Shown here one piece after another: positions 30,687-62,190 of a stretch of DNA of 64,000 nt. Every line of letters starts with the position of its first letter. Positions within the stretch are counted from its first letter, which is position 1. A program made the position numbers and the translations under genes. The DNA is from Flavobacteriales bacterium (GTDB lineage: Bacteria > Bacteroidota > Bacteroidia > Flavobacteriales_D > Sanyastnellaceae), in the NCBI GenBank assembly GCA_022447625.1, contig JAKVAX010000004.1, forward strand, positions 62,001 through 126,000, given 5' to 3'. The notes under the pieces were generated by a model. It was not told where the DNA came from, did not search any database, and worked only from the letters and a program-made list of their open reading frames with translations.

Positions 30687-33600
30687 ATGAGAGTATTATC
30701 CTGGATAAGTGTATTCATTTTCGCGCTAGCCTCTACCAGCAGTGCGCAAGTGATAATGAACGAGTTCTCGTTCGCCAATTACGATGACCTTAATGTTGAT
30801 CCCGGAGGATGGGATGGAGAGTTTGAAGATTGGGTTGAATTCTATAACCCAACAGGAGGAGATGTAGATATCAGTGGATACTACATGACTGACCAAGCTG
30901 ATAACCTCGATAAATTTGAAATTCCAGCAGGAACAATTGTTCCAGCAAACGGAATGCTTCTTGTTTTGATCACGAATGACTTCGATGAAGACCCATACAT
31001 GTGGGGATGGTTGAACACGAACTTCAAAGTGAATCAAACACAAGGGGAATCAATCATCTTCTCTGACCCTGGATTGACTCCAATCGATTCCTTTACATTC
31101 GGAACTGATATTGACCCTAATCAACGAAACCATAGCTACGGTCGTTCAACCGACGGTGCTGCTGATTGGGTGATCTTTACCAACGCTTCTCCGGAAGCCC
31201 CAAATGGTGGGCCAAGCGGAACTTCTTATGCCGCTGCTCCGATAATTGATGTGGAAGCAGGTTACTACGCAGGTGGAACAACGCTTACGATTTCTTCTGA
31301 GCCGAATACGACGGTGTATTACACTATTGATGGCAGCGAACCAACAGATGGTTCAACTATGTATACAGATCCTATCGATATCAACGGTACCACGGTAGTA
31401 AAGGCTGTTGCCTACCACGATAACGATACGAACGTTCTCCCAAGTCTTGTGGAGACAAACTCATACTTCACTGGGGATGACCAACACGGTATTATAGTTT
31501 GTAGCGTATCAGGACCAACCCTTTCAGACGGGGCATGGAACGGAGATGAGCTAATGGCACTTGAGTTCTTCTATCCAGGAGGAGGTTTTTGGTGTGAAGG
31601 CCTCGGAGATTCTAATGAACACGGAAACGACTCGAATGCATATGGGCAACGTGGTTTCGATTACGTAGGTCGTGATCAACTTGGGTACAACCACGAAATC
31701 GAAGAAGAGCTTTTCCACGAAAAAAATCGCGATCACTACCAGCGTCTCATTTTTAAGGCGGCTGCCAATGATAACTACCCATTTGAACCAGGAGCGCACA
31801 TTCGTGATGCTTACGTTCACACACTCTCACACAAGGCTGACCTTGACATGGATGAGCGCACTAGTGAATCTTGTATCGTATATATCAATGGTGAGTATTG
31901 GGGAGTATACGAGTACCGTGAAAAAGTTGATGACCTCGATTTTACAGATGAGTACTACGACCAACCACGTCACTTCGTAGACTTCTTAAAGACTTGGGGA
32001 GGAACATGGGAAGAGTACGGATCAATCGATGATTGGAACACACTTGTGAACTTTGTGACTACTCAAGATATGACTGATCCTGCGAACTACGATTACGTAG
32101 AGTCAGTGTACAACACAGGAAGCTTGATCGATTACTTCATCCTTAATTCATACATCGTATCGGCTGACTGGTTGAACTGGAACACAGCATGGTGGAGAGG
32201 ACGTCACCCGGATGGAGATGCGAAGAAATGGCGCTACATCCTTTGGGATATGGATGCTTCATTTGGACACTATGTGAACTACACTGGAGTTCCGGATACG
32301 GGCCCAGAAGCTGACCCATGTAATCCTGAAGTTTTGGGTGATCCAGGAGGTCAAGGACACGTTCCAATCTTGAACGCTCTTCTTGAAAACGAAGATTTCT
32401 ATGCTGATTACATCAACCGTTGGGCTGATCTCAGCAACTCATACTTGAACTGTGATTACATGCACTACCTACTTGATAGTATGGTAAACGAGATTGCACC
32501 AGAGATGGAGCGTCAGTGCGAGCGTTGGGGTGGAAATGTTGCTGGTTGGGAAGCTGAACTTCAGCAACTACGTGACTTCATCGACACCCGCTGTGAGCAA
32601 ACAGTAGTTGATGGTATGGAAGATTGCTACGACGTAGAAGCCATCACAATCACTATCATCATCGAGGGAATTGGAGAAGTAGAAATCGAAACCTTCGATA
32701 TTGGACCTGACATGGTGCCATGGGAAGGAATTTACTTCGCAGGATTCCCAATCAACCTAGATGCAGAAGATGAAGGATTAGGAGTCTTCCTCTATTGGGA
32801 GGTGTTAGATGGTGATTTGGTCATCGCTGATCCTGAGAACCCGAGTATCATTATTGAGCCTACGGGAGATGTGACCATCGTCGCTTACTTCTTGAATGAC
32901 TTAGATCCACAAAACGTGATGTTCGACGTTCAGCCAGAAGGAGCAGGAGATATCCTCTTCGGTGGAGTACCTATGGGGCCGTACCCGAACACTCAGCTAG
33001 TGGATGGAGGACCAAGTAGCATTAGCGCTGTTGGAGCTGATCAGTGGTTCGTATTTGATCACTGGGAAACAATCAATGCAAATGTTAACCCAGATGAGTT
33101 TTCAGCTGATGCAACTACTTTCATCGCAACTACAGATACGATCATCGCAGTATTCAACGAACTCCCACACTTCGATATTAATGTCGCTGTGGAGCCAGCA
33201 GGTGCTGGATGGATTACAATGGATGGTACAGAGCTAGACAACTATCCATGGACGGGCACTGTAGCGGGTGAAGTGGACATCGCATTTGCTACTGCAGGAT
33301 ACGATGACTGGAGTGTGTTTGATCACTGGGAAGTGAATAATACACCAATCAACCCAGATGAATTTGCACAGAACATCACCTTGAACTTCACAACAACCGA
33401 TACCATCGTTGCCGTGTACAATGTGATTCCTCACAATACCGTAACGATATTGGTTGAGCCAGCTGAAGCAGGCTTAGTGATCGTTGACAATACACTGACA
33501 GTGAATGAGTCATGGTCTGGTGAACTAGAGGCAGAGACGCCAACCCCATTTGCGGCCTTCCCAGAAGCATTCTGGTACTTTGATCGTTGGGAGTCTTTGA

Positions 33601-33980
33601 ACCACCTGCCAACACCTGATAACCGATCTTCAGTAGTTGATTATGAATTCTACAATAGTGACACGATTGTTGCGCATTTTGTAGAAGAACCGTTCAACGT
33701 ATACGTACCGAACAGTTTCACACCAAATAACGATGGAAAGAATGATGTATTCCTCCCTGTAGGTTCAGCTTGGAAAGACGGCACTTACGAACTGTGGGTA
33801 TTCAACCGATGGGGAGATATAGTATTCTACTCTGATGATCCAAGGACACCTTGGAACGGAAGCCATCAAGATGGTACACACTACGTAGCTGATCAGGTCT
33901 ACGTGTATCGATTGACAGTGCAACCGGTTCACAGCGTAGAACCAGAAGAATTTAGCGGACACATTACAGTGTTCAGATAA
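30687..33980 (+). CDS. CotH-domain surface protein with CHU_C/T9SS type B domain
   Basis: 1097 residues. Order of parts: signal peptide (1-20); lamin-tail domain (about 22-165, MNEFSFANYDD...EDWVEFYNPTGG); chitobiase/hexosaminidase C-terminal-like domain (about 180-262, VYYTIDGSEPTDGS); CotH kinase domain (about 320-610, with LIFKAA, SESCIVYINGEYWGVYEYREKVD and WRYILWDMDASFG); three or four InlB/bacterial-type repeats sharing WxVFDHWE...TTDTIVAVxN (about 680-1000); and a CHU_C gliding-type sorting domain (about 1008-1097, YVPNSFTPNNDGKNDVF). CotH proteins phosphorylate secreted proteins in spores; here the target would be extracellular. The gene ends at a UUCG-loop terminator. Confidence 0.88.
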   Translation: MRVLSWISVFIFALASTSSAQVIMNEFSFANYDDLNVDPGGWDGEFEDWVEFYNPTGGDVDISGYYMTDQADNLDKFEIPAGTIVPANGMLLVLITNDFDEDPYMWGWLNTNFKVNQTQGESIIFSDPGLTPIDSFTFGTDIDPNQRNHSYGRSTDGAADWVIFTNASPEAPNGGPSGTSYAAAPIIDVEAGYYAGGTTLTISSEPNTTVYYTIDGSEPTDGSTMYTDPIDINGTTVVKAVAYHDNDTNVLPSLVETNSYFTGDDQHGIIVCSVSGPTLSDGAWNGDELMALEFFYPGGGFWCEGLGDSNEHGNDSNAYGQRGFDYVGRDQLGYNHEIEEELFHEKNRDHYQRLIFKAAANDNYPFEPGAHIRDAYVHTLSHKADLDMDERTSESCIVYINGEYWGVYEYREKVDDLDFTDEYYDQPRHFVDFLKTWGGTWEEYGSIDDWNTLVNFVTTQDMTDPANYDYVESVYNTGSLIDYFILNSYIVSADWLNWNTAWWRGRHPDGDAKKWRYILWDMDASFGHYVNYTGVPDTGPEADPCNPEVLGDPGGQGHVPILNALLENEDFYADYINRWADLSNSYLNCDYMHYLLDSMVNEIAPEMERQCERWGGNVAGWEAELQQLRDFIDTRCEQTVVDGMEDCYDVEAITITIIIEGIGEVEIETFDIGPDMVPWEGIYFAGFPINLDAEDEGLGVFLYWEVLDGDLVIADPENPSIIIEPTGDVTIVAYFLNDLDPQNVMFDVQPEGAGDILFGGVPMGPYPNTQLVDGGPSSISAVGADQWFVFDHWETINANVNPDEFSADATTFIATTDTIIAVFNELPHFDINVAVEPAGAGWITMDGTELDNYPWTGTVAGEVDIAFATAGYDDWSVFDHWEVNNTPINPDEFAQNITLNFTTTDTIVAVYNVIPHNTVTILVEPAEAGLVIVDNTLTVNESWSGELEAETPTPFAAFPEAFWYFDRWESLNHLPTPDNRSSVVDYEFYNSDTIVAHFVEEPFNVYVPNSFTPNNDGKNDVFLPVGSAWKDGTYELWVFNRWGDIVFYSDDPRTPWNGSHQDGTHYVADQVYVYRLTVQPVHSVEPEEFSGHITVFR

Positions 33981-40532: not shown

Positions 40533-43500
40533 CTAACACTCTTGACCGAAGAGCGCAAGGAAGTCTAGAAGGTCGGCCTGCGAAACGGATCCGTCTCCAT
40601 TCATATCCACGTCTTCGTCACATCCAACAGTACAGTTGTACCATTGCAAAAGGATCAAGAAGTCAGCAATATCTCTTACTTGGTCGCCATTGAAGTCACC
40701 CATACAAGCTACCGGAAGTACTTCGTCATCTTCAACAACACCATTACAGTCGTTGTCAATTCCTTCTGCAGTTCCTGGAGCACCTGGATAAACATCCATG
40801 CGAGAATCATCACAATCATCTGCGTTGGATACATAGCCCAATGGCATGCTACAGTCAAGAACCGGGAATGCAGCATCACCGTAGCTATCATTATCGAAAT
40901 CAAGATACCAAACCATTTGGTCAACTGCTTCTTCATCGGTAGCCCCGTCACAGTCGTTATCGATTCCATCACATAACTCAGGAGCACCTGGGTAAATGTT
41001 CTCATCAGAGTCATCACAGTCTTGGTCATTCAGCACGTAACCTTGAACTGGGTCACAAGAGAAGATAGACTCCCCAGCATGACCATAGCCATCGTTATCG
41101 CTATCCGCGTAGTAAACTGCACCTTCAAGGACAGTAATGTAACCTACCTTGGTTTCGGCATCGATATCATCTCCGTTATCCGCAGTCAAGGTCACGTCGT
41201 AGACACCTGGTACGTTGTAGACAATGCCAGATGGGTTTTGATCAGTGCTGCTACTTGGTGTACCACCCTCAAAGCTCCAAGACCAGTTGTTTGCGCCATT
41301 GGTGCTCAGGTCTGTGAAGTTGATGCTTTCACCTTGACAGATGGTAGTAGCATCAGCTGTAAAGTCAGCGAATTCCAAACCAGCAACTGTTTGACAAGCT
41401 CCAATCACAGTAACCACGTTGTGGTAGTCTTCATTCACAACATCTGTAATGTTGCTGATACATACTTCCGAAGCGTCGAGGCTAACGTAGTACAAACGCA
41501 CCAACGGAATAGGCGCTAGGTTCTTAGGGAATACTTGATCATTGTAAGCCAAACCAATCACCTTCGTGCCACCCAAGCTTGATTGTGGGTTGATATCGTA
41601 CACCAAAGGATCAGCAAGGGTTTCTACCGACTGAATGGTCAGTCCGCTCAATTCGAATTCGTATCCTACGATTTCATTGTCAGGGTTAAGGACGTGAATG
41701 TCAACATACCCTAGGTCTTCATTGATATCACCAACGCTGAGCGTAGTGGTGTGGCTAGGGTTGATAAATTCATCATCCCAAACACAGTGATCATGCACCC
41801 CAAATTCGTCGACGTGATCCGGACCATAGTGCAGACATCCTGCAATGAGTGCTGCATCCGTTACGGTGATGTTGTTGTCGTTATCCATATCTGTACATGG
41901 AGAGATCAATGCATCGTTCCCAAGGATGTCTTGGATGTATTGAGCAGCGTCGCCGTTGTCAATGTCTCCATTGTTGTTGACATCACCTTTAACAACGAGT
42001 CCTGGACAGTTTCCAGCACAGTCTGCTGCAGCATCACCAAATGGCACACCGTAACAATCGAAGATGACTGGACAGTTGATGTCTTTCGTGAAGTTGATCA
42101 TGTTGCCCGCTCCATCGCGTTCAAATGAAATACACACTGCAGCCCAGTTGTTTTCGTATGTCAGCTCGTAAGAACCATTCGCATCTGGAGACTGATCCCA
42201 GTTCGTGCGAACTACCAACGTATAAAAACCACCAGGTACATCGGTAAGATCAACCCATTGACAGCTCAGGCTTGATGAGTAGATATCACCACAACCTGCG
42301 GTGATCCCCATGTTTCCACAAGTGTATTTCGCTTGTCCACCGTCAGAACACTCAAGGTCAAGGACACAGAATCCGTTCTTAAAACCAATTTGCGGCATGG
42401 CGTTACCATCTCCATCGTAAAGCAGGTACTCCGCATATCCTTCGTAGTGCCAGTGGTTGTGACAGTCGTCATATTCGAATTGATCAGGCTGGTCACCTGG
42501 ATCTCCAATGAAGTAATCTTCTGTACCAATGTTTTTAATGTGGGTAGTGAAGCGAATGATTTCACGCTCACCAAATCCTTGCATACACCCCTCGTTGACA
42601 TAACACGCATCGTTGTTTGTCAAGGTTGTTGCATACATACTATCGTAGAACACACTTCCCAGAACTTCAAGGTCAGGACCAATACTCGGACATTGAATGT
42701 CACCCGGGTAGAAACACTCACCCGGTGCGCCTGCGATAGGGAGGAAGTTACATGCCAAAGGATCCATACAACCTACCACAGGTCCCATGTACTCTATTAA
42801 AAAGTCAATTGGTTCACCGTCACAAGCTCCATCGGTAGCACCGATTCGCAAGAAGTAAGTGTATCCACCTTCAAGTAGAGGAGTGATTTCAGCTTGAACC
42901 CCACATAAGTCATCGTTGTATGTTAGGGTCGCTTCGTTTGTATCATCGAAGATGCCCATGTCACAGTTGTCGTACATCCAGATCTTCGTATCACATGTAG
43001 CGCGGTCACATGTAGTAATGCGGTATTGACCATTTTGAGTTGGAGTGAATGAGTACCATGCATTAGGGTTAGGCAGGGAATGCTCGCCTTCTCCTACCGA
43101 GATGGCATTGTTACAGTCAAATCCAGGAGGACAATTCAAGTTGATTGATTCTGAAACATCATAATCACCACCAGTCGCGATGCTGTTCCCGTCAAGAATG
43201 AGTTCGTAGTATCCGTTTCCATATCCACAGCAAATACCATCGCCGTATGAATCGAAGATGGTGAAGGTGTGGCAGTTGTCTTGGATACAGACCGTTGTTC
43301 CTTCAGATCCACCCGTTGCGATTTGATTGCCGAATTCATCGTTTAGTTCCCAGCTAATCTCTGCAGGGTAGTTGTCAGGAACAATCACGATTTCTAGGGC
43401 TTGTCCTGCTGAGATGATGACATCTTGAGAAGACTGTGCCGTTTCATCTCCATTGGATACTTCAAGAGTAGCAGTGTAAGTTCCTGCCGCGCTGTATGTC

Positions 43501-44138
43501 ACCGCAGGATTGGGATCGATAGAAGAGGCCGGATTACCTCCAGGGAAGCTCCAGTTGTATGAAGTGACGTTCCCAACACTGGCATCAGCGAACGAAACGG
43601 CTGTCTCACCACAACTGGCTCCAGCATCAAAACTGAATACAGCTTCCAAAGGAGGGTAGAGGCAAGAACCGTCGTCGTTCGTAGCACATGCATTGTAGTT
43701 GTCGGCAGCTGGGTCAGTACAACCGTTAGCTGCGGAGCCTAATGCAAATGACTGACTTTCTGAATCGCCGTATGCCGCATTCGCTGCAATCATGGCAATC
43801 ACCACGTTTCCGAGGTCATCAGTAATGCTGTAGTTTCCGTCGATCGCACATGAACCCCATTGCGATCCGTTCATTCCATCTCCGTAGGTGTCACTAATGG
43901 TGAAGGTGTAGCATCCGTCTGGGATATCTACATCTGTGGTGAAGGTTTGGTCGTTACCATAAGTTCCTGATACGGTATTGGCAATGATATTTCCTTGGTC
44001 ATCGACAAGTTCCCAAGATACCTCGCCTCCCCAGCAATCTGTGGTAACCGAAATTGTAAGTTGATTTTGAGCGTTTGCTCCTGCAGATAGCAGCAGGCAC
44101 AGCATCAAAGCTATGCCATACACAAGCCTCTCTCTCAT
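40533..44138 (-). CDS. Secreted multidomain protein with predicted active lysyl oxidase domain
   Basis: 1201 residues from ATG 44138 (signal peptide to ANA-Q near residue 23; the frame to 44228 runs into truC). Two ISWEL/YGDG modules, a PKD domain (165-245), a PPC-like module (340-450), then a lysyl oxidase domain (about 485-675). The latter has the copper motif DDCHNHWHYEGYAEY (557-571), Lys587 in GFKNGFCVLD and Tyr620 in GCGDIYSSSLSCQWVD, aligning with Lys320 and Tyr355 that form the LTQ cofactor in human LOX. A dockerin-like EF-hand stretch (about 715-770), a second PKD (about 925-1000), two MopE-type metal-binding repeats (about 1010-1140) and a final dockerin-like pair follow. No T9SS domain is seen. 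It would oxidise lysines outside the cell. Confidence 0.85.
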   Translation of the reverse strand: MRERLVYGIALMLCLLLSAGANAQNQLTISVTTDCWGGEVSWELVDDQGNIIANTVSGTYGNDQTFTTDVDIPDGCYTFTISDTYGDGMNGSQWGSCAIDGNYSITDDLGNVVIAMIAANAAYGDSESQSFALGSAANGCTDPAADNYNACATNDDGSCLYPPLEAVFSFDAGASCGETAVSFADASVGNVTSYNWSFPGGNPASSIDPNPAVTYSAAGTYTATLEVSNGDETAQSSQDVIISAGQALEIVIVPDNYPAEISWELNDEFGNQIATGGSEGTTVCIQDNCHTFTIFDSYGDGICCGYGNGYYELILDGNSIATGGDYDVSESINLNCPPGFDCNNAISVGEGEHSLPNPNAWYSFTPTQNGQYRITTCDRATCDTKIWMYDNCDMGIFDDTNEATLTYNDDLCGVQAEITPLLEGGYTYFLRIGATDGACDGEPIDFLIEYMGPVVGCMDPLACNFLPIAGAPGECFYPGDIQCPSIGPDLEVLGSVFYDSMYATTLTNNDACYVNEGCMQGFGEREIIRFTTHIKNIGTEDYFIGDPGDQPDQFEYDDCHNHWHYEGYAEYLLYDGDGNAMPQIGFKNGFCVLDLECSDGGQAKYTCGNMGITAGCGDIYSSSLSCQWVDLTDVPGGFYTLVVRTNWDQSPDANGSYELTYENNWAAVCISFERDGAGNMINFTKDINCPVIFDCYGVPFGDAAADCAGNCPGLVVKGDVNNNGDIDNGDAAQYIQDILGNDALISPCTDMDNDNNITVTDAALIAGCLHYGPDHVDEFGVHDHCVWDDEFINPSHTTTLSVGDINEDLGYVDIHVLNPDNEIVGYEFELSGLTIQSVETLADPLVYDINPQSSLGGTKVIGLAYNDQVFPKNLAPIPLVRLYYVSLDASEVCISNITDVVNEDYHNVVTVIGACQTVAGLEFADFTADATTICQGESINFTDLSTNGANNWSWSFEGGTPSSSTDQNPSGIVYNVPGVYDVTLTADNGDDIDAETKVGYITVLEGAVYYADSDNDGYGHAGESIFSCDPVQGYVLNDQDCDDSDENIYPGAPELCDGIDNDCDGATDEEAVDQMVWYLDFDNDSYGDAAFPVLDCSMPLGYVSNADDCDDSRMDVYPGAPGTAEGIDNDCNGVVEDDEVLPVACMGDFNGDQVRDIADFLILLQWYNCTVGCDEDVDMNGDGSVSQADLLDFLALFGQEC

Positions 44139-44179: not shown

Positions 44180-44932
44180 TTATTCGGACTCTTCCTGTGT
44201 AATGCCTGATCCGTGTTTCCAATCCCACTCATTTAGAACACGTTGGAAGTGTTCAGGTAAAGGTGCTCTTATCGTGATTCTAGCGCCGTCAGGATGCTCA
44301 AACCGAAGCTTTGATGCATGTAAAAAGAGCGCTGGATGATCTAACTGATCTCGGAAATGTTGATTGTGTTTCCGATCTCCATGACGGTTGTCACCAATGA
44401 TTGGATGTCGCAAATGAGAGAAGTGAAGTCGAATCTGATGATAACGCCCTGTCTTCGGTTCTACCTCAACAAAGCTGTAGCGAGAAGTGGGGTATATACT
44501 AATTTCATAGTCCTTCTCAATATGATACAAGGTCTTGTATTCGGTCAATGCATCTTTCAACGGCGCATCTTTGTCTTTTTGTAAAGCCTTTTCGACTGTT
44601 CCTGATTCTTGAGTAAATCCGCGTACCATCGCTAGATAGGTTTTGCTGATCTCTCTATCGAGGAATTGAGCCTTCAAAAAATTGAGGGTATTGACGTCTT
44701 TTGAGAATACAATCAATCCTGAAGTAGGTTTATCTAATCTATGTACCGGGTCAACCTTCACCCCAAGCAAATCAGCCAACCACTTTCGAAGATTCGTGCG
44801 CTCATAAAAGTCGATTGACGTGCGATGAACGAGCATTCGGTTAGGTTTGAAGACGACCACAATCTTCTCATCTTCAAATAGTATGCTTGGCTTTCCAATG
44901 GCTTCCTGTTGCATTACAAACGCATTCCTCAA
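44180..44932 (-). CDS. truC: tRNA pseudouridine synthase C
   Basis: 250 residues of the RluA/TruC family. The catalytic Asp is in VHRLDKPTSGLI, and the RYHQIRLHFSHLRHPIIGD segment is the conserved C-terminal motif. The GDNRHGDRKHNQHF phrase is characteristic of TruC, which modifies U65 of tRNA. The start may be 44932 or the Met at 44914. It is upstream of the lysyl-oxidase gene on the same strand with 41 bp between them; this looks positional, not functional. Confidence 0.87.
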   Translation of the reverse strand: MRNAFVMQQEAIGKPSILFEDEKIVVVFKPNRMLVHRTSIDFYERTNLRKWLADLLGVKVDPVHRLDKPTSGLIVFSKDVNTLNFLKAQFLDREISKTYLAMVRGFTQESGTVEKALQKDKDAPLKDALTEYKTLYHIEKDYEISIYPTSRYSFVEVEPKTGRYHQIRLHFSHLRHPIIGDNRHGDRKHNQHFRDQLDHPALFLHASKLRFEHPDGARITIRAPLPEHFQRVLNEWDWKHGSGITQEESE

Positions 44933-45076
44933 TAAAATGGCTATTTTCGCTCGACAAATTTACAACGCCAGACAACCATTTTGGGCTTTTGGATGAGTAA
45001 TAATAGAAAGGATGAGTATTTTCGTGATCCTATTCTTTTTCGCTAAGAGCTTGGGCAACAAATGGGAAGATGTAAT

Positions 45077-48000
45077 ATGAAAAGAATACTAACTGTGCTA
45101 TTGCTACTATGTTCAGGTGTGACTGCATTCTCGCAGGCGACCGGCAACTTTACAATAGAAGTAGATCAGGTACATTACGGAATGGTCGGCGCTACAGACC
45201 TCAATGGCTACATCACCTACTCGGTGTACGCTGAATTCACCGATGAAGATGATTTCCTTTCAGCTCTTTATGGTCTGCTTCAAGCAGATGATCAGCCGGA
45301 TGATGAGGATATCTTTATGTATGGAGATGGAGACTTCTTCAATGAAGAACTCTTTGGAGGCTACATCGTGGGTGTGATATCAGATGGTGTTTGTGCTGGT
45401 TTCCCTGAAGCTTGTTATGATACATACTGGACCATCGGAGAGAGCTTTACATCTGATCCTGGAGAAACAAATATTGCGACCACAGTTCCTGCGTTTCTAG
45501 CAACTTCAGACCCTTCTGCTGAATTGATTGACGATGGTGTAATCTTCACATTGAACGGACAGCCGAATGGTTTCCCTGGTCCAGACTTACGCAACAAGAT
45601 TGCCCAGGTAACAACCAACGGTACAGAATTCACACTAGACTTTTGTATTCAGGTCTTCACTGCTGATGGAACTGAGCAGTTCCTTTGCCCAGATCCTCAG
45701 ACATTCTTCAATCCTTGTATTCAAAACCCATTTGACGTCACGCCAACGGTCACTGCTGACTTGCTATGTAACGGTGAACTCGCAACAGTTGAATTTGATC
45801 CAGGCGGCAACGGACCAGTTGATTGTCAACTATTCACTTACACGAATACGGACACAACGATTGTTTCGACCACAGTTGATGATTTCATTTACGAAGGCCT
45901 TGGTGAAGGAGACTACTTCGTGGTTTTCACAGACGAAGTTGGATGTATCGACACTACGGATGCTTTCGGATTCGTTGAACCTGAAGTTCTTGAATTGACA
46001 CTAAATCAAACTGCTGATAACCTTTGTTTCGGTGACGCTATCGCGGAATGGTGCCCAACGATCACAGGAGGTACAATCCCTTACAACATTGATTTGATCA
46101 ACCCAGATTCTTCAGTGGATTCATTCAATGATGGTGATTGCTTCTCTAACCTTGGTTGTATTGATGGACAAGGCGATTACACTGTAAACATTACTGATGA
46201 CAACGGATGTCAGGTATCAGAAGACATTTCAGTGACATGTCCTGAAGAGATTGTGATTGATGCTACGACGAGCCCAATCCTATGTAACGGACTAGAAACG
46301 GGGGCAGTCGAAGTAAATATTACTGGAGGTACTGGTGTATTGACACTAGACTTTACAGATCCAGATTTCAACTTTACTCCACAGGAGGCCCCAATTGATC
46401 TTACGATTTCTGATCTAGGTGCCGGTCAATACACGTTGACGATCACTGACGAAAACAACAGTCAAGAAACGCAAATCTTCGACTTAATAGAACCAGATGC
46501 ACTTGACGTGACATTCACAAGCACTGACATTGTGTGTTTTGGAGAGTGCAGCGGAGTGATTGAATTCATAGCTGACGGTGGGACAGGTCCTTTCGAACTA
46601 GTAGTAACTGACCTAGACGGAAACGTTGAGATCCCTACTGAACTTTGTGCCGGTGAGCATATTGCAACTGTATTTGACAACAACGATTGTCCTTTCATTG
46701 ACACGTTGACGATCACTGAGCCACCACAAATCGTATTTAATCTAGACACCACAAATGTGAGTTGTTTCGGAGCGAACGATGGTGAAATCTGTATTTCGAA
46801 CGTGACCGGTGGAACAGGGGTGGTGCAATGGCAGATTTCATCTCCGCCATCCGAAGCGACGGCTTTGGGTACTGAGCCTTGTTTCTCAATGCTACCAGCT
46901 GATACCTACACGATGAACTTCATCGATGATATTGGTTGTACGATTATTGTTGATGGTCTTATCATCATTGAACCAGACGAATTGATCATTGATGCTGTTG
47001 GAACAGATGTTACTTGTTTCGGACTTGACAACGGTATGATCGAAGTGAATGCTTCAGGTGGAACAGGCACCATCTCATTGACGAGCCCAGAGACACAAGA
47101 ACTCCCATTCACGATAGAGAACTTGGTACCTGGAAATGTCAACGTAGTCATCACAGATGAAACAGGATGTCAAGACAGCGTTGTCGTTGAGATTAATGAG
47201 CCACTTGAATTAACCGTTGTTCTGAACGGAACAACAGACATCTCTTGTGGTGACGATTGTGATGGTGCGGTTGATTTAGATATTTCTGGTGGGACTGGTG
47301 AGATAGCCTTGTTCCTAAACGATGTGCCATCTGTGCCAGTAGGACTTTGTGCTGGAGTCTACGAAGCGATTGTAGTTGATGAGAATCAGTGTCAAGACAC
47401 GGTTACATTCGAAATTGAAGAGCCAGACCCGGTAGAGTTCTCACTTTTGATTGAGCAAGTGACATGCACAGGTATGAATGACGGTTCAGCAGTAGCGGTT
47501 CCTTTTGGAGGAACTGGTAACCCTGCCAACTTTGAATTAACCTTCTTCCCCATAGATGCTGACGAAAACAACCTTTTCGAAGGAGAATATACTTACCAAG
47601 CGATCGATTCAGTAGGATGTGTATTCGATACAACCTTCTTTGTGACGGCTGAGATTGAAACTGATCTAAGTGTAACCATCTTCACGAGCCCAGTGACATG
47701 TTGGAATGAAGCAGATGGTACGGCCACTGCTGCCGTAACTGGAGGTACTGAGCCATTCACATTTGAATGGAACGATCCTGATATGCAGACTACCGCCACT
47801 GCGGTTGGACTTGCAGAAGAGGTGTACTCAGTAACTGTTAGCGACGGTGATGGATGTATTCTATCATTCTTCGCAGAAGTAGAACCAACTGTTGGATGTT
47901 TCTTTATCGCTGATGCCTTGACTCCAAACGGAGATGGTGCGAACGATGAATGGATCATTGGTGGTCTTGAATTCTTCCCGAATTCCCTCGTTCAAGTGTT

Positions 48001-48160
48001 CAACCGTTGGGGGCAACTACTATATGAATCTAAAGGATACTCAACCCCTTGGGATGGAACATGGAATGGAAACGCCTTACCAGTGGCAGACTACTACTAC
48101 GTGATCACGTATGATGAGTCGAAAGAACCGATTCTAGGAACAGTAACGATTAAATACTGA
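45077..48160 (+). CDS. SprB-like repeat adhesin with CHU_C/T9SS type B domain
   Basis: 1027 residues from ATG 45077 (signal peptide cut near FS-QATG). An N-terminal domain of about 200 residues (IEVDQVHYG, SVYAEFTDEDDFLSALYG, YWTIGESF) is followed by about ten SprB-type beta repeats. Each has the phrase TC-F/W-G-x-x-DG, then GGTG, then VTDxxGC and an EP boundary. The CHU_C sorting domain is residues 945-1027 (FIADALTPNGDGANDEW). SprB is the mobile gliding adhesin of Flavobacterium; this shorter relative is directly followed by sprF, as expected for a T9SS-dependent adhesin. Exact dispersed 13-mer at 46036-46048. Confidence 0.87.
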   Translation: MKRILTVLLLLCSGVTAFSQATGNFTIEVDQVHYGMVGATDLNGYITYSVYAEFTDEDDFLSALYGLLQADDQPDDEDIFMYGDGDFFNEELFGGYIVGVISDGVCAGFPEACYDTYWTIGESFTSDPGETNIATTVPAFLATSDPSAELIDDGVIFTLNGQPNGFPGPDLRNKIAQVTTNGTEFTLDFCIQVFTADGTEQFLCPDPQTFFNPCIQNPFDVTPTVTADLLCNGELATVEFDPGGNGPVDCQLFTYTNTDTTIVSTTVDDFIYEGLGEGDYFVVFTDEVGCIDTTDAFGFVEPEVLELTLNQTADNLCFGDAIAEWCPTITGGTIPYNIDLINPDSSVDSFNDGDCFSNLGCIDGQGDYTVNITDDNGCQVSEDISVTCPEEIVIDATTSPILCNGLETGAVEVNITGGTGVLTLDFTDPDFNFTPQEAPIDLTISDLGAGQYTLTITDENNSQETQIFDLIEPDALDVTFTSTDIVCFGECSGVIEFIADGGTGPFELVVTDLDGNVEIPTELCAGEHIATVFDNNDCPFIDTLTITEPPQIVFNLDTTNVSCFGANDGEICISNVTGGTGVVQWQISSPPSEATALGTEPCFSMLPADTYTMNFIDDIGCTIIVDGLIIIEPDELIIDAVGTDVTCFGLDNGMIEVNASGGTGTISLTSPETQELPFTIENLVPGNVNVVITDETGCQDSVVVEINEPLELTVVLNGTTDISCGDDCDGAVDLDISGGTGEIALFLNDVPSVPVGLCAGVYEAIVVDENQCQDTVTFEIEEPDPVEFSLLIEQVTCTGMNDGSAVAVPFGGTGNPANFELTFFPIDADENNLFEGEYTYQAIDSVGCVFDTTFFVTAEIETDLSVTIFTSPVTCWNEADGTATAAVTGGTEPFTFEWNDPDMQTTATAVGLAEEVYSVTVSDGDGCILSFFAEVEPTVGCFFIADALTPNGDGANDEWIIGGLEFFPNSLVQVFNRWGQLLYESKGYSTPWDGTWNGNALPVADYYYVITYDESKEPILGTVTIKY

Positions 48161-48167
48161 TCTGGCC

Positions 48168-49121
48168 ATGAAAAAGATTTTACTACTACTCGCTGTATTT
48201 TTCTTGGCTAGCCTAGGTGCCGAAGCCCAACAGCTTTCTAGAAGAACTCAATTCATCAATAATACATACTTGATGAATCCAGCTGTAGCTGGAACAAAGC
48301 TTTATTCACCAATCACGGTATCATACCGTAATCAGTGGGCAGGGTTTGATGGAGCACCGCAGACATATTTGTTGTCAGGTCACACCGGGCTTCCAAATCG
48401 AATTGGCGTAGGAGCGATTTTCTTCCACGATGATACTGGAGGTGCCATTAGCCGCACAGGAGCAGAGTTGACTGGTAGCTACCAGATCGATTTGAATAAC
48501 GAAGATGCTGTTTCTTTCGGTTTGAGTGCTGTGCTAAGCCAATTTGCTTTTGATGGCTCAGACTTGGAGGTATTTGATCAGAACGATCAAGCCCTCGTTG
48601 GAACTGCTGAGTCTACATTCAACTTTGATGCGAATTTTGGTATGATGGTATACGGACCAAATTACTTCTTCGGATTTAGTGTTCCACAACTCATCCAGAC
48701 GAAACTCGGTATCGATGGGTTCCTCGAAGATGAGAATCAGAATATTCGCCACTTCAACTTCATGGGGTCGTACTTGTACTACTTCAATGAGGATTTCTCG
48801 ATTCAGCCGTCTGTCTTGACAAAGTTCACAGGGTCTAGTCCAGTGCAATTGGATGTGCTCTTGAAAGCAGCCTACCAAGACATGGTATGGGCAGGTGTAA
48901 CTTATCGTCACAACGATGCTGTTGCCCTCTCCGTAGGATACGAATATGACCGTTATGCGGTAGCGTATTCATATGATATCACAACGTCTGACGCAGCGAA
49001 CCTATCGCCGCATACACACGAGATTTCATTATCATACTACATCCCAAGAGCGGGACGGGGATTCTCTGAAAAATCACTTCTCGGAAAGCGTATCCTTTCA
49101 CGTCGCCGCGTCGTTAAGTGA
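48168..49121 (+). CDS. PorP/SprF family type IX secretion membrane protein
   Basis: 317 residues. Signal peptide (to AEA-QQ), then the PorP/SprF outer-membrane domain: RTQFINNTYLMNPAVAGTK, SYRNQWAGFDGAPQTYLLSGH and IGVGAIFFHDDTGG. SprF is needed for secretion of SprB in Flavobacterium, and SprF-like genes usually sit just after the adhesin they serve. It begins 7 nt after the SprB-like gene, so the two are almost surely co-transcribed. It would be the dedicated partner of that adhesin. Confidence 0.92.
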   Translation: MKKILLLLAVFFLASLGAEAQQLSRRTQFINNTYLMNPAVAGTKLYSPITVSYRNQWAGFDGAPQTYLLSGHTGLPNRIGVGAIFFHDDTGGAISRTGAELTGSYQIDLNNEDAVSFGLSAVLSQFAFDGSDLEVFDQNDQALVGTAESTFNFDANFGMMVYGPNYFFGFSVPQLIQTKLGIDGFLEDENQNIRHFNFMGSYLYYFNEDFSIQPSVLTKFTGSSPVQLDVLLKAAYQDMVWAGVTYRHNDAVALSVGYEYDRYAVAYSYDITTSDAANLSPHTHEISLSYYIPRAGRGFSEKSLLGKRILSRRRVVK

Positions 49122-62116: not shown

Positions 62117-62190
62117 TGACCCCGCAGGGATTCGAACCCCGAACCTCCGCATCCGTAGTGCGGTGCTCTATCCAGTTAAGCTACGGAGCC
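62117..62190 (-). tRNA. tRNA-Arg (anticodon ACG)
   Basis: 74 nt folding as a standard cloverleaf on the minus strand. Acceptor GGCTCCG pairs with CGGGGTC (two G-U pairs) plus discriminator A. The anticodon stem CCGCA/TGCGG encloses loop CTACGGA, anticodon ACG (read as ICG after deamination). The T-arm has the GTTCGAATC core. CCA is not encoded. A TATATTTG -7 box lies upstream and a terminator follows. Confidence 0.95.

Follow-up and report, generated by a model that had tools for sequence, protein, structure and literature searches.

The window, that is, the whole stretch of 64,000 nucleotides analysed here, encodes on its minus strand a 1201-residue protein carrying a lysyl oxidase (LOX) domain in which the copper histidines and the two quinone-forming residues are present. 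Among relatives this domain sits within a conserved unit, in which it is followed by an internal dockerin and by a beta domain of predicted cohesin-like fold. We consider it probable that the protein is an exported, multi-module and active copper/quinone amine oxidase kept in position by its docking modules. The features of the protein are as follows:

40533..44138, minus strand: whole protein, 1201 residues, with a signal-peptide-like start judged by eye (ORF list) MRERLVYGIALMLCLLLSAGANAQ
43422..43601, minus strand: PKD domain, residues 180-239, the best of two stretches (PF18911)
42684..43406, minus strand: conserved N-terminal unit, residues 245-485, without a named family (alignment of LOX ORFs)
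42048..42683, minus strand: lysyl oxidase catalytic domain, residues about 486-697 (Pfam, PDB alignment, model)
42120..42581, minus strand: PF01186 match, residues 520-673 (Pfam)
42447..42461, minus strand: copper-ligand motif HNHWH, with His560, His562 and His564 (alignment)
42378..42380, minus strand: Lys587, pairing with LOXL2 Lys653 and LOX Lys320 (alignment)
42279..42281, minus strand: Tyr620, pairing with LOXL2 Tyr689 and LOX Tyr355 (alignment)
41844..41990, minus strand: internal type I dockerin-like double calcium loop, residues 717-765 (Pfam, profile)
41373..41765, minus strand: cohesin-like fold, residues about 792-922 (predicted model only)
40932..41021, minus strand: MopE putative metal-binding motif, residues 1040-1069, the best of two stretches (PF11617)
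40536..40706, minus strand: C-terminal GC-type dockerin-like tail, residues about 1145-1201 (NF041540, 24.2 bits, below the cut-off)

The reading frame is opened by an ATG at 44138, and an alternative GTG at 44228 would extend the protein to 1231 residues. The original prediction had placed a LOX domain at 42111-42684, where frame 1 of the plus strand is full of stops; the bounds obtained here agree with that interval to within about 65 bases, and the motifs it had named, CHNHWHY (residues 559-565), GFKNGFC (585-591) and DIYSSSLSCQW (618-628), are all present in the minus-strand frame. Pfam searches with the whole protein returned Lysyl_oxidase, PKD twice, Cu-binding_MopE twice and Dockerin_1, bearing out the PKD, MopE and dockerin modules that had been proposed to flank the oxidase, and no NCBIfam family for the whole protein was detected at E up to 0.01.

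The LOX profile PF01186, on which the original prediction had staked itself, matches the domain at 3e-28 (99.3 bits against a cut-off of 20.4); this is the single match in the source genome, and none of 14 control genomes contains one. The best solved relative identified by phmmer against the PDB is human LOXL2 (5ze3, 5.6e-20), and the resulting alignment brings together the copper histidines of the two proteins, matching GHKASFC to GFKNGFC at the Lys and DMYRHDIDCQW to DIYSSSLSCQW at the Tyr. Since His, Lys and Tyr are all paired, the motifs are real and in register, and the residues claimed for the Lys320 and Tyr355 positions of LOX do fall there, as Lys587 and Tyr620.

The proposed superposition on LOXL2 gave a concordant result. 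An AlphaFold model of the 206-residue domain, based on an alignment of 36 sequences (pLDDT 83.5, pTM 0.79), retrieved with Foldseek two chains at 0.001 or below, both from 5ze3 (best 1.0e-11), and VIA-align matched it to 5ze3 with Z 16.3 (rmsd 4.1 over 189 residues, 30% identity), the next chain after 5ze3 reaching only Z 5.7. It had also been suggested that a model with the Lys and Tyr far apart would refute the assignment. This distance is unsound as a refuter, because Lys653 and Tyr689 lie 16.6 Å apart in LOXL2 5ZE3, a precursor crystallised before the cofactor forms, according to PMC9694262. The ten cysteines of the five disulfides tabulated for the LOXL2 amine oxidase domain (PMC9180022, Table 1) are all found in the window domain at LOXL2 spacing, nine of them invariant and one conserved in at least 90% of the 36 sequences, and their pairing is putative. 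The HxHxH residues His560, His562 and His564 are likewise invariant in these 36 sequences, and the first His of the animal copper motif is Asp; the survey in PMC4448552 describes this His as lost from bacteria and cites mutant work that found it dispensable. The domain is hence a lysyl oxidase with the copper histidines and both quinone-forming residues, and because all of these are present it is likely, on sequence grounds, to be active.

Presence of the gene among relatives had been put forward as a further check. PF01186 was identified in 39 of the 60 genomes searched, own included, with 31/36 positives among other genomes of the same genus or family and 7/23 in the same order; of two further genomes of the genus that were searched, one lacks the gene. 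Across the phylum at large, it was detected in 4 of 395 sampled genomes, including the source genome and one family member. The 60 genomes yielded 49 PF01186 hits, and the profile alignment places the three histidines, the Lys and the Tyr in 44 of them. By eye, these residues are also present in the divergent L225 and L226, and all 46 untruncated domains keep them, L222, L223 and L224 being cut by contig ends and lying outside this count. In L225 and L226 the motifs read HNHNH or HGHNH, with the Lys in GAKIGFC or GAKLGFC, and the divergent LOX-like family formed by L224 (which ends at its contig end), L225 and L226 shows no dockerin-cohesin unit in L226 or in the genomes of L224 and L226.

A relative is encoded by 565 candidate stretches in the genome collection, the best 80 of which were used, and a flank-rich set of relatives was collected with patterns that include the Lys motif and was for this reason left out of the residue count. 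Relatives come from MAGs or genomes labelled as Flavobacteriales, Cryomorphaceae, Crocinitomicaceae, Saprospiraceae, Sphingobacteriales, Chitinophagales and Lewinella cohaerens, and these labels point to a Flavobacteriales affinity of the source organism. One MAG labelled Chryseobacterium gleum (L056) groups tightly with Flavobacteriales LOX sequences (L049, L059) and may be misnamed.

Alignment of 39 full-length proteins revealed that conservation reaches far past LOX, spanning about residues 245-925 and outlining a unit of roughly 680 residues. The N-terminal part of this unit (residues 245-485) is present in 43/44 and 106/106 testable LOX ORFs, and profile searches identified no relative for it in the PDB (best E 0.086). 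The region C-terminal to LOX (residues 698-925) comprises a dockerin followed by a beta domain. For the dockerin, a profile search against the PDB matched the endoglucanase SS dockerin 1daq (9.5e-5), and the type I dockerin profile PF00404 scored 33 bits over two stretches of the whole protein against a cut-off of 22.9; the internal stretch alone reached 24.2 bits in the genome search and 21.3 in the cut segment. A model of residues 698-925 (pLDDT 88.9, pTM 0.85) retrieved cohesin-bearing entries in the first 14 rows of a Foldseek search, the best of them the dockerin-cohesin complex 6kgf (9.2e-6). VIA assigned Z 11.3 to the cohesin-like 2jh2 (116 residues, 16% identity) and to 6kgf, the first clearly different fold being that of the GH20 enzyme 6k35 (Z 8.9). 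The Pfam cohesin profile PF00963 has no match in the source genome, nor any at E up to 1 in the 39 segments, and because this profile misses the module we name it cohesin-like. As modelled, the beta domain would adopt the cohesin jelly-roll fold, with putative dockerin binding.

The association between this dockerin-cohesin unit and LOX is close. Using a profile of the unit, we detected it after LOX in 43/44 testable ORFs of the PF01186 set, the sole exception being the divergent L226 (L225, not found by the LOX profile, is outside the 44), and in 109/109 testable ORFs of the flank-rich set, where several genomes are represented twice. In G022 (L016) LOX is directly followed by the unit, but in another reading frame. 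Over the 60 genomes, the profile matched 37 of the 39 with LOX, and in the two that remain (G046, G055) all LOX hits are short and divergent. Matches away from LOX comprise a weak dockerin-only match in the LOX-free G039 (3.8e-5), a weak partial match in G035 (2.5e-4) and a full match without a LOX hit on contig 44 of G015 (4.3e-77); this contig ends 96 bases upstream, and the LOX part may have been cut off with it. The remaining 20 LOX-free genomes returned no match, and a close tie between the unit and LOX follows.

At its C-terminus, the window protein shows no match to the T9SS sorting domains TIGR04183 or TIGR04131, and ends in a dockerin-like tail with paired cysteines, some 57 residues long. 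TIGR04183 (T9SS type A) was found in 22/39 full-length relatives, the window protein being one of the 39, and the source genome holds at least 150 T9SS type A matches (150 of 220 candidates scored). All 18 LOX tails tried against the GC-type dockerin family NF041540 match at E up to 1 (best 1.6e-7), but the window tail, at 24.2 bits, stays below the cut-off of 29 bits. A profile of the tail identified 53 matches in the source genome at E 0.001 and 56 at 0.01, and 29 of the best 30 of these 56 end two residues or fewer from the stop codon. The tail serves far more than LOX, since the LOX-free genome of the same genus (G001) has 72 matches, and this GC-type dockerin-like module may constitute a second sorting or anchoring tag beside the T9SS tails.

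A tree of 95 LOX domains, 34 with dockerin-like and 52 with T9SS-type tails, requires at least three tail changes, three of them forced by well-supported branches. From this tree, 13 fetched loci were omitted as copies from the same genome; 12 of them correspond to named loci and L118 does not, and putting L118 back raises the changes from three to four. With L118 in place, three changes are obtained without the group of L093, L096 and L105, whose dockerin-tail label stands at only 10 to 13 bits with a different ending. Since 52 tails of the same proteins went into building the T9SS-tail model, the independent check is provided by the aforementioned TIGR04183 matches. Given that each tail replaces the other at the same place in one enzyme, the two types probably do the same job, be it export or surface attachment. 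Seven loci (L047, L052, L053, L057, L061, L063 and L065) carry two oppositely oriented LOX genes within a few kilobases of each other, of which one ends in a dockerin-like and the other in a T9SS-type tail, the second tail of L053 being unlabelled and the second gene of L057 being cut at its start.

The genes next to LOX in the window are:

44180..44932, minus strand: RluA-type pseudouridine synthase, syntenic, with no evident link
45062..48160, plus strand: SprB-repeat protein with a T9SS type B sorting domain, nearly lysine-free
48168..49121, plus strand: PorP/SprF

They belong to a block that recurs, with variations, in related genomes and runs in the order mutase-type fusion, LOX, RluA-type synthase, SprB-repeat protein, PorP/SprF, a 205-residue protein and an MsrB-like gene, where the mutase-type and MsrB-like names are our assumption from the sequence by eye. 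In G001 the block genes keep this order with LOX alone missing and a gap of about 200 bases, and tblastn searches of G001 and G016 with the LOX protein revealed no remnant (best E 7.1 and 1.2, respectively). An obligate partnership between LOX and the SprB/PorP block was considered and rejected, as the block is present without LOX in G001, G016 and G019. A looser tie may hold, because the block was not seen in the 20 kb around the mutase gene of seven LOX-free genomes (G020, G038, G039, G042, G044, G049 and G052). Within four genes of LOX, a SprB-type protein was found for 23 and PorP/SprF for 20 of 89 LOX genes, many of which have short flanks and some of whose genomes are counted twice. Elsewhere in the window, 30687-33977 encodes a protein that combines CotH kinase, a lamin-tail domain and a type B sorting domain, relatives of which lie near LOX in several genomes, and a tRNA gene (62117-62190, minus strand) is the only Rfam gathering-level match.

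Lysyl oxidases process a Tyr and a Lys of their own, in a copper-dependent manner, into a quinone and then oxidise primary amines. Following this chemistry, the LOX domain of the window protein would coordinate a single copper with His560, His562 and His564, and the metal, together with oxygen, would turn Tyr620 and Lys587 into lysine tyrosylquinone. Aldehydes would then be formed from primary amines, whether small amines or peptidyl lysine, and ammonia and hydrogen peroxide would be set free outside the cell. The dockerin and the cohesin-like module would fix the enzyme in an assembly, either by folding onto each other within a chain or head-to-tail between chains, and the C-terminal tail, GC-type dockerin-like here or T9SS in relatives, would serve export or surface attachment. 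The steadiness of the LOX-dockerin-cohesin unit indicates that the enzyme probably acts within a docked extracellular assembly. The docking unit suggests a fixed place for the enzyme, and the scarcity of lysine at the surface speaks against self cross-linking.

This last point bears on the original prediction, in which the domain was proposed to cross-link an extracellular matrix. The part of that interpretation concerning a probably active LOX domain with its His, Lys and Tyr is upheld by the residues present, and the matrix part is more tentative: that the enzyme oxidises lysines of its own extracellular proteins, with the aldehydes knitting a surface matrix or holdfast, is possible but doubtful. 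LOX family chemistry, the multi-module architecture with PKD and MopE, docking modules that would place the enzyme in an assembly, the SprB-type and PorP/SprF genes near a share of LOX loci and a 205-residue protein with 11 Lys in the same block are all compatible with such a role. However, no substrate was found, the SprB/PorP block also occurs without LOX, and the surface proteins are lysine-poor, with 9 Lys in the 1201 residues of the LOX protein itself and 5 Lys and 4 Arg in the 1032 residues of the SprB-repeat neighbour. Three lysines of this neighbour (991, 1021, 1031) lie in or beside its sorting domain (951-1030), and only Lys179 falls outside the first residues, where Lys7 is located, and the C-terminal sorting region. 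With lysines so few and so placed, the neighbour is a poor substrate for lysine cross-linking.

Surface proteins are depleted in Lys and Arg alike. The idea that LOX genomes avoid lysine against self-oxidation was examined and set aside, there being no clear link: arginine falls too, and the LOX-free G001 behaves alike. In 21 surface proteins of G001, median K is 1.56% and median R 1.92%, with K/(K+R) at 0.37 against 0.47 in other proteins; the corresponding values for 17 surface proteins of the LOX-bearing G002 are 1.25%, 2.83% and 0.33 against 0.52. The five surface proteins of the window show a K/(K+R) of 0.43, others 0.50. These samples cover 299 kb of G001, 318 kb of G002 and the 64 kb window, amounting to one genome pair, and LOX may have a small effect on lysine content.

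A role as an extracellular amine scavenger for nitrogen, or as a source of peroxide harming competitors, is tentative to the same degree, and we regard it as no more and no less probable than matrix cross-linking. LodA of marine bacteria is described as one of the quinone-bearing amino acid oxidases whose hydrogen peroxide is harmful to competitors. PMC4417212 and PMC4699246 report peroxide-producing amino acid oxidases as antimicrobial in marine bacteria, and PMC6452851 describes an archaeal LOX of relaxed specificity that oxidises taurine, glycine and some aminoglycosides. Yet nothing in the sequence favours small amines over protein, and the fused docking modules suit a solid-phase substrate better. 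A more elaborate and improbable arrangement is a self-assembling scaffold, in which the dockerin would bind the cohesin-like module of the next molecule, or that module would bind surface proteins with GC-dockerin tails, and LOX would fix the array covalently; if true, this would be the bacterial equivalent of how collagen and elastin mature, made from cellulosome-type docking parts. Least probable of all is a non-catalytic adhesion protein retaining the fold for binding after loss of enzyme function, a reading in line with the large adhesin-like architecture and with LOX being silent at times in native cells, but at odds with the intact catalytic residues of all 46 untruncated domains and with a mean column identity of 66% in LOX (36 sequences) against 44% and 47% in its flanks (a largely overlapping set of 39).

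The preferred reading, a docked and probably active amine oxidase, can be set against what has been described. The 2015 survey by Grau-Bove et al. (PMC4448552), as far as its account of prokaryotes extends, reports LOX in Bacteroidetes with conserved His core and LTQ residues, and states that all but three prokaryotic sequences consist of just the LOX domain. The catalytic claim is therefore not new, since these residues were published in 2015 and the LOX of the archaeon Haloterrigena turkmenica, once refolded with copper, was an amine oxidase sensitive to 3-aminopropionitrile in vitro (PMC6452851). According to the same paper, amine oxidase activity was not detectable in cultured Haloterrigena, and conservation of the sequence is hence no guarantee of a busy enzyme. 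Searches of the open-licence literature, preprints excluded, did not find the LOX-dockerin-cohesin unit, the co-occurrence of this unit with LOX or the tail change. Hence, the enzyme domain is already known from bacteria, and the docking unit that regularly accompanies it seems not to have been reported before. The role of prokaryotic LOX is left open in the relevant discussions of PMC4448552 and PMC6452851, and the steady unit narrows it to a probable action in a docked assembly, in a Flavobacteriales family and in Saprospiraceae and other Bacteroidota. In addition, the same-genus pair with and without LOX at one site offers a ready genetic comparison, and these sequences add data for tracing how the animal enzyme arose.

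Compared with human LOXL2 (5ze3) and animal LOX, the window domain is alike in fold, HxHxH motif, Lys, Tyr and the ten disulfide cysteines and differs in the Asp that takes the place of the first copper-motif His; LOXL2 has SRCR domains, whereas the window protein has PKD, dockerin, cohesin-like and MopE modules instead. The Haloterrigena turkmenica enzyme is also prokaryotic, with activity shown after refolding, but it is archaeal, and the abstract and discussion of PMC6452851 mention no docking modules. Relative to the mostly LOX-only prokaryotic sequences of the 2015 survey, as summarised there, the sequences analysed here carry the dockerin-cohesin unit in 43/44 and 109/109 testable ORFs. 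With the cellulosomal dockerin-cohesin pairs and cohesin-like modules (2jh2, 6kgf, 1daq) the window protein shares the dockerin double calcium loop by sequence and, by model, the cohesin fold; unlike in those, both modules here, outside the Pfam cohesin profile, lie adjacent in a single chain and on an oxidase.
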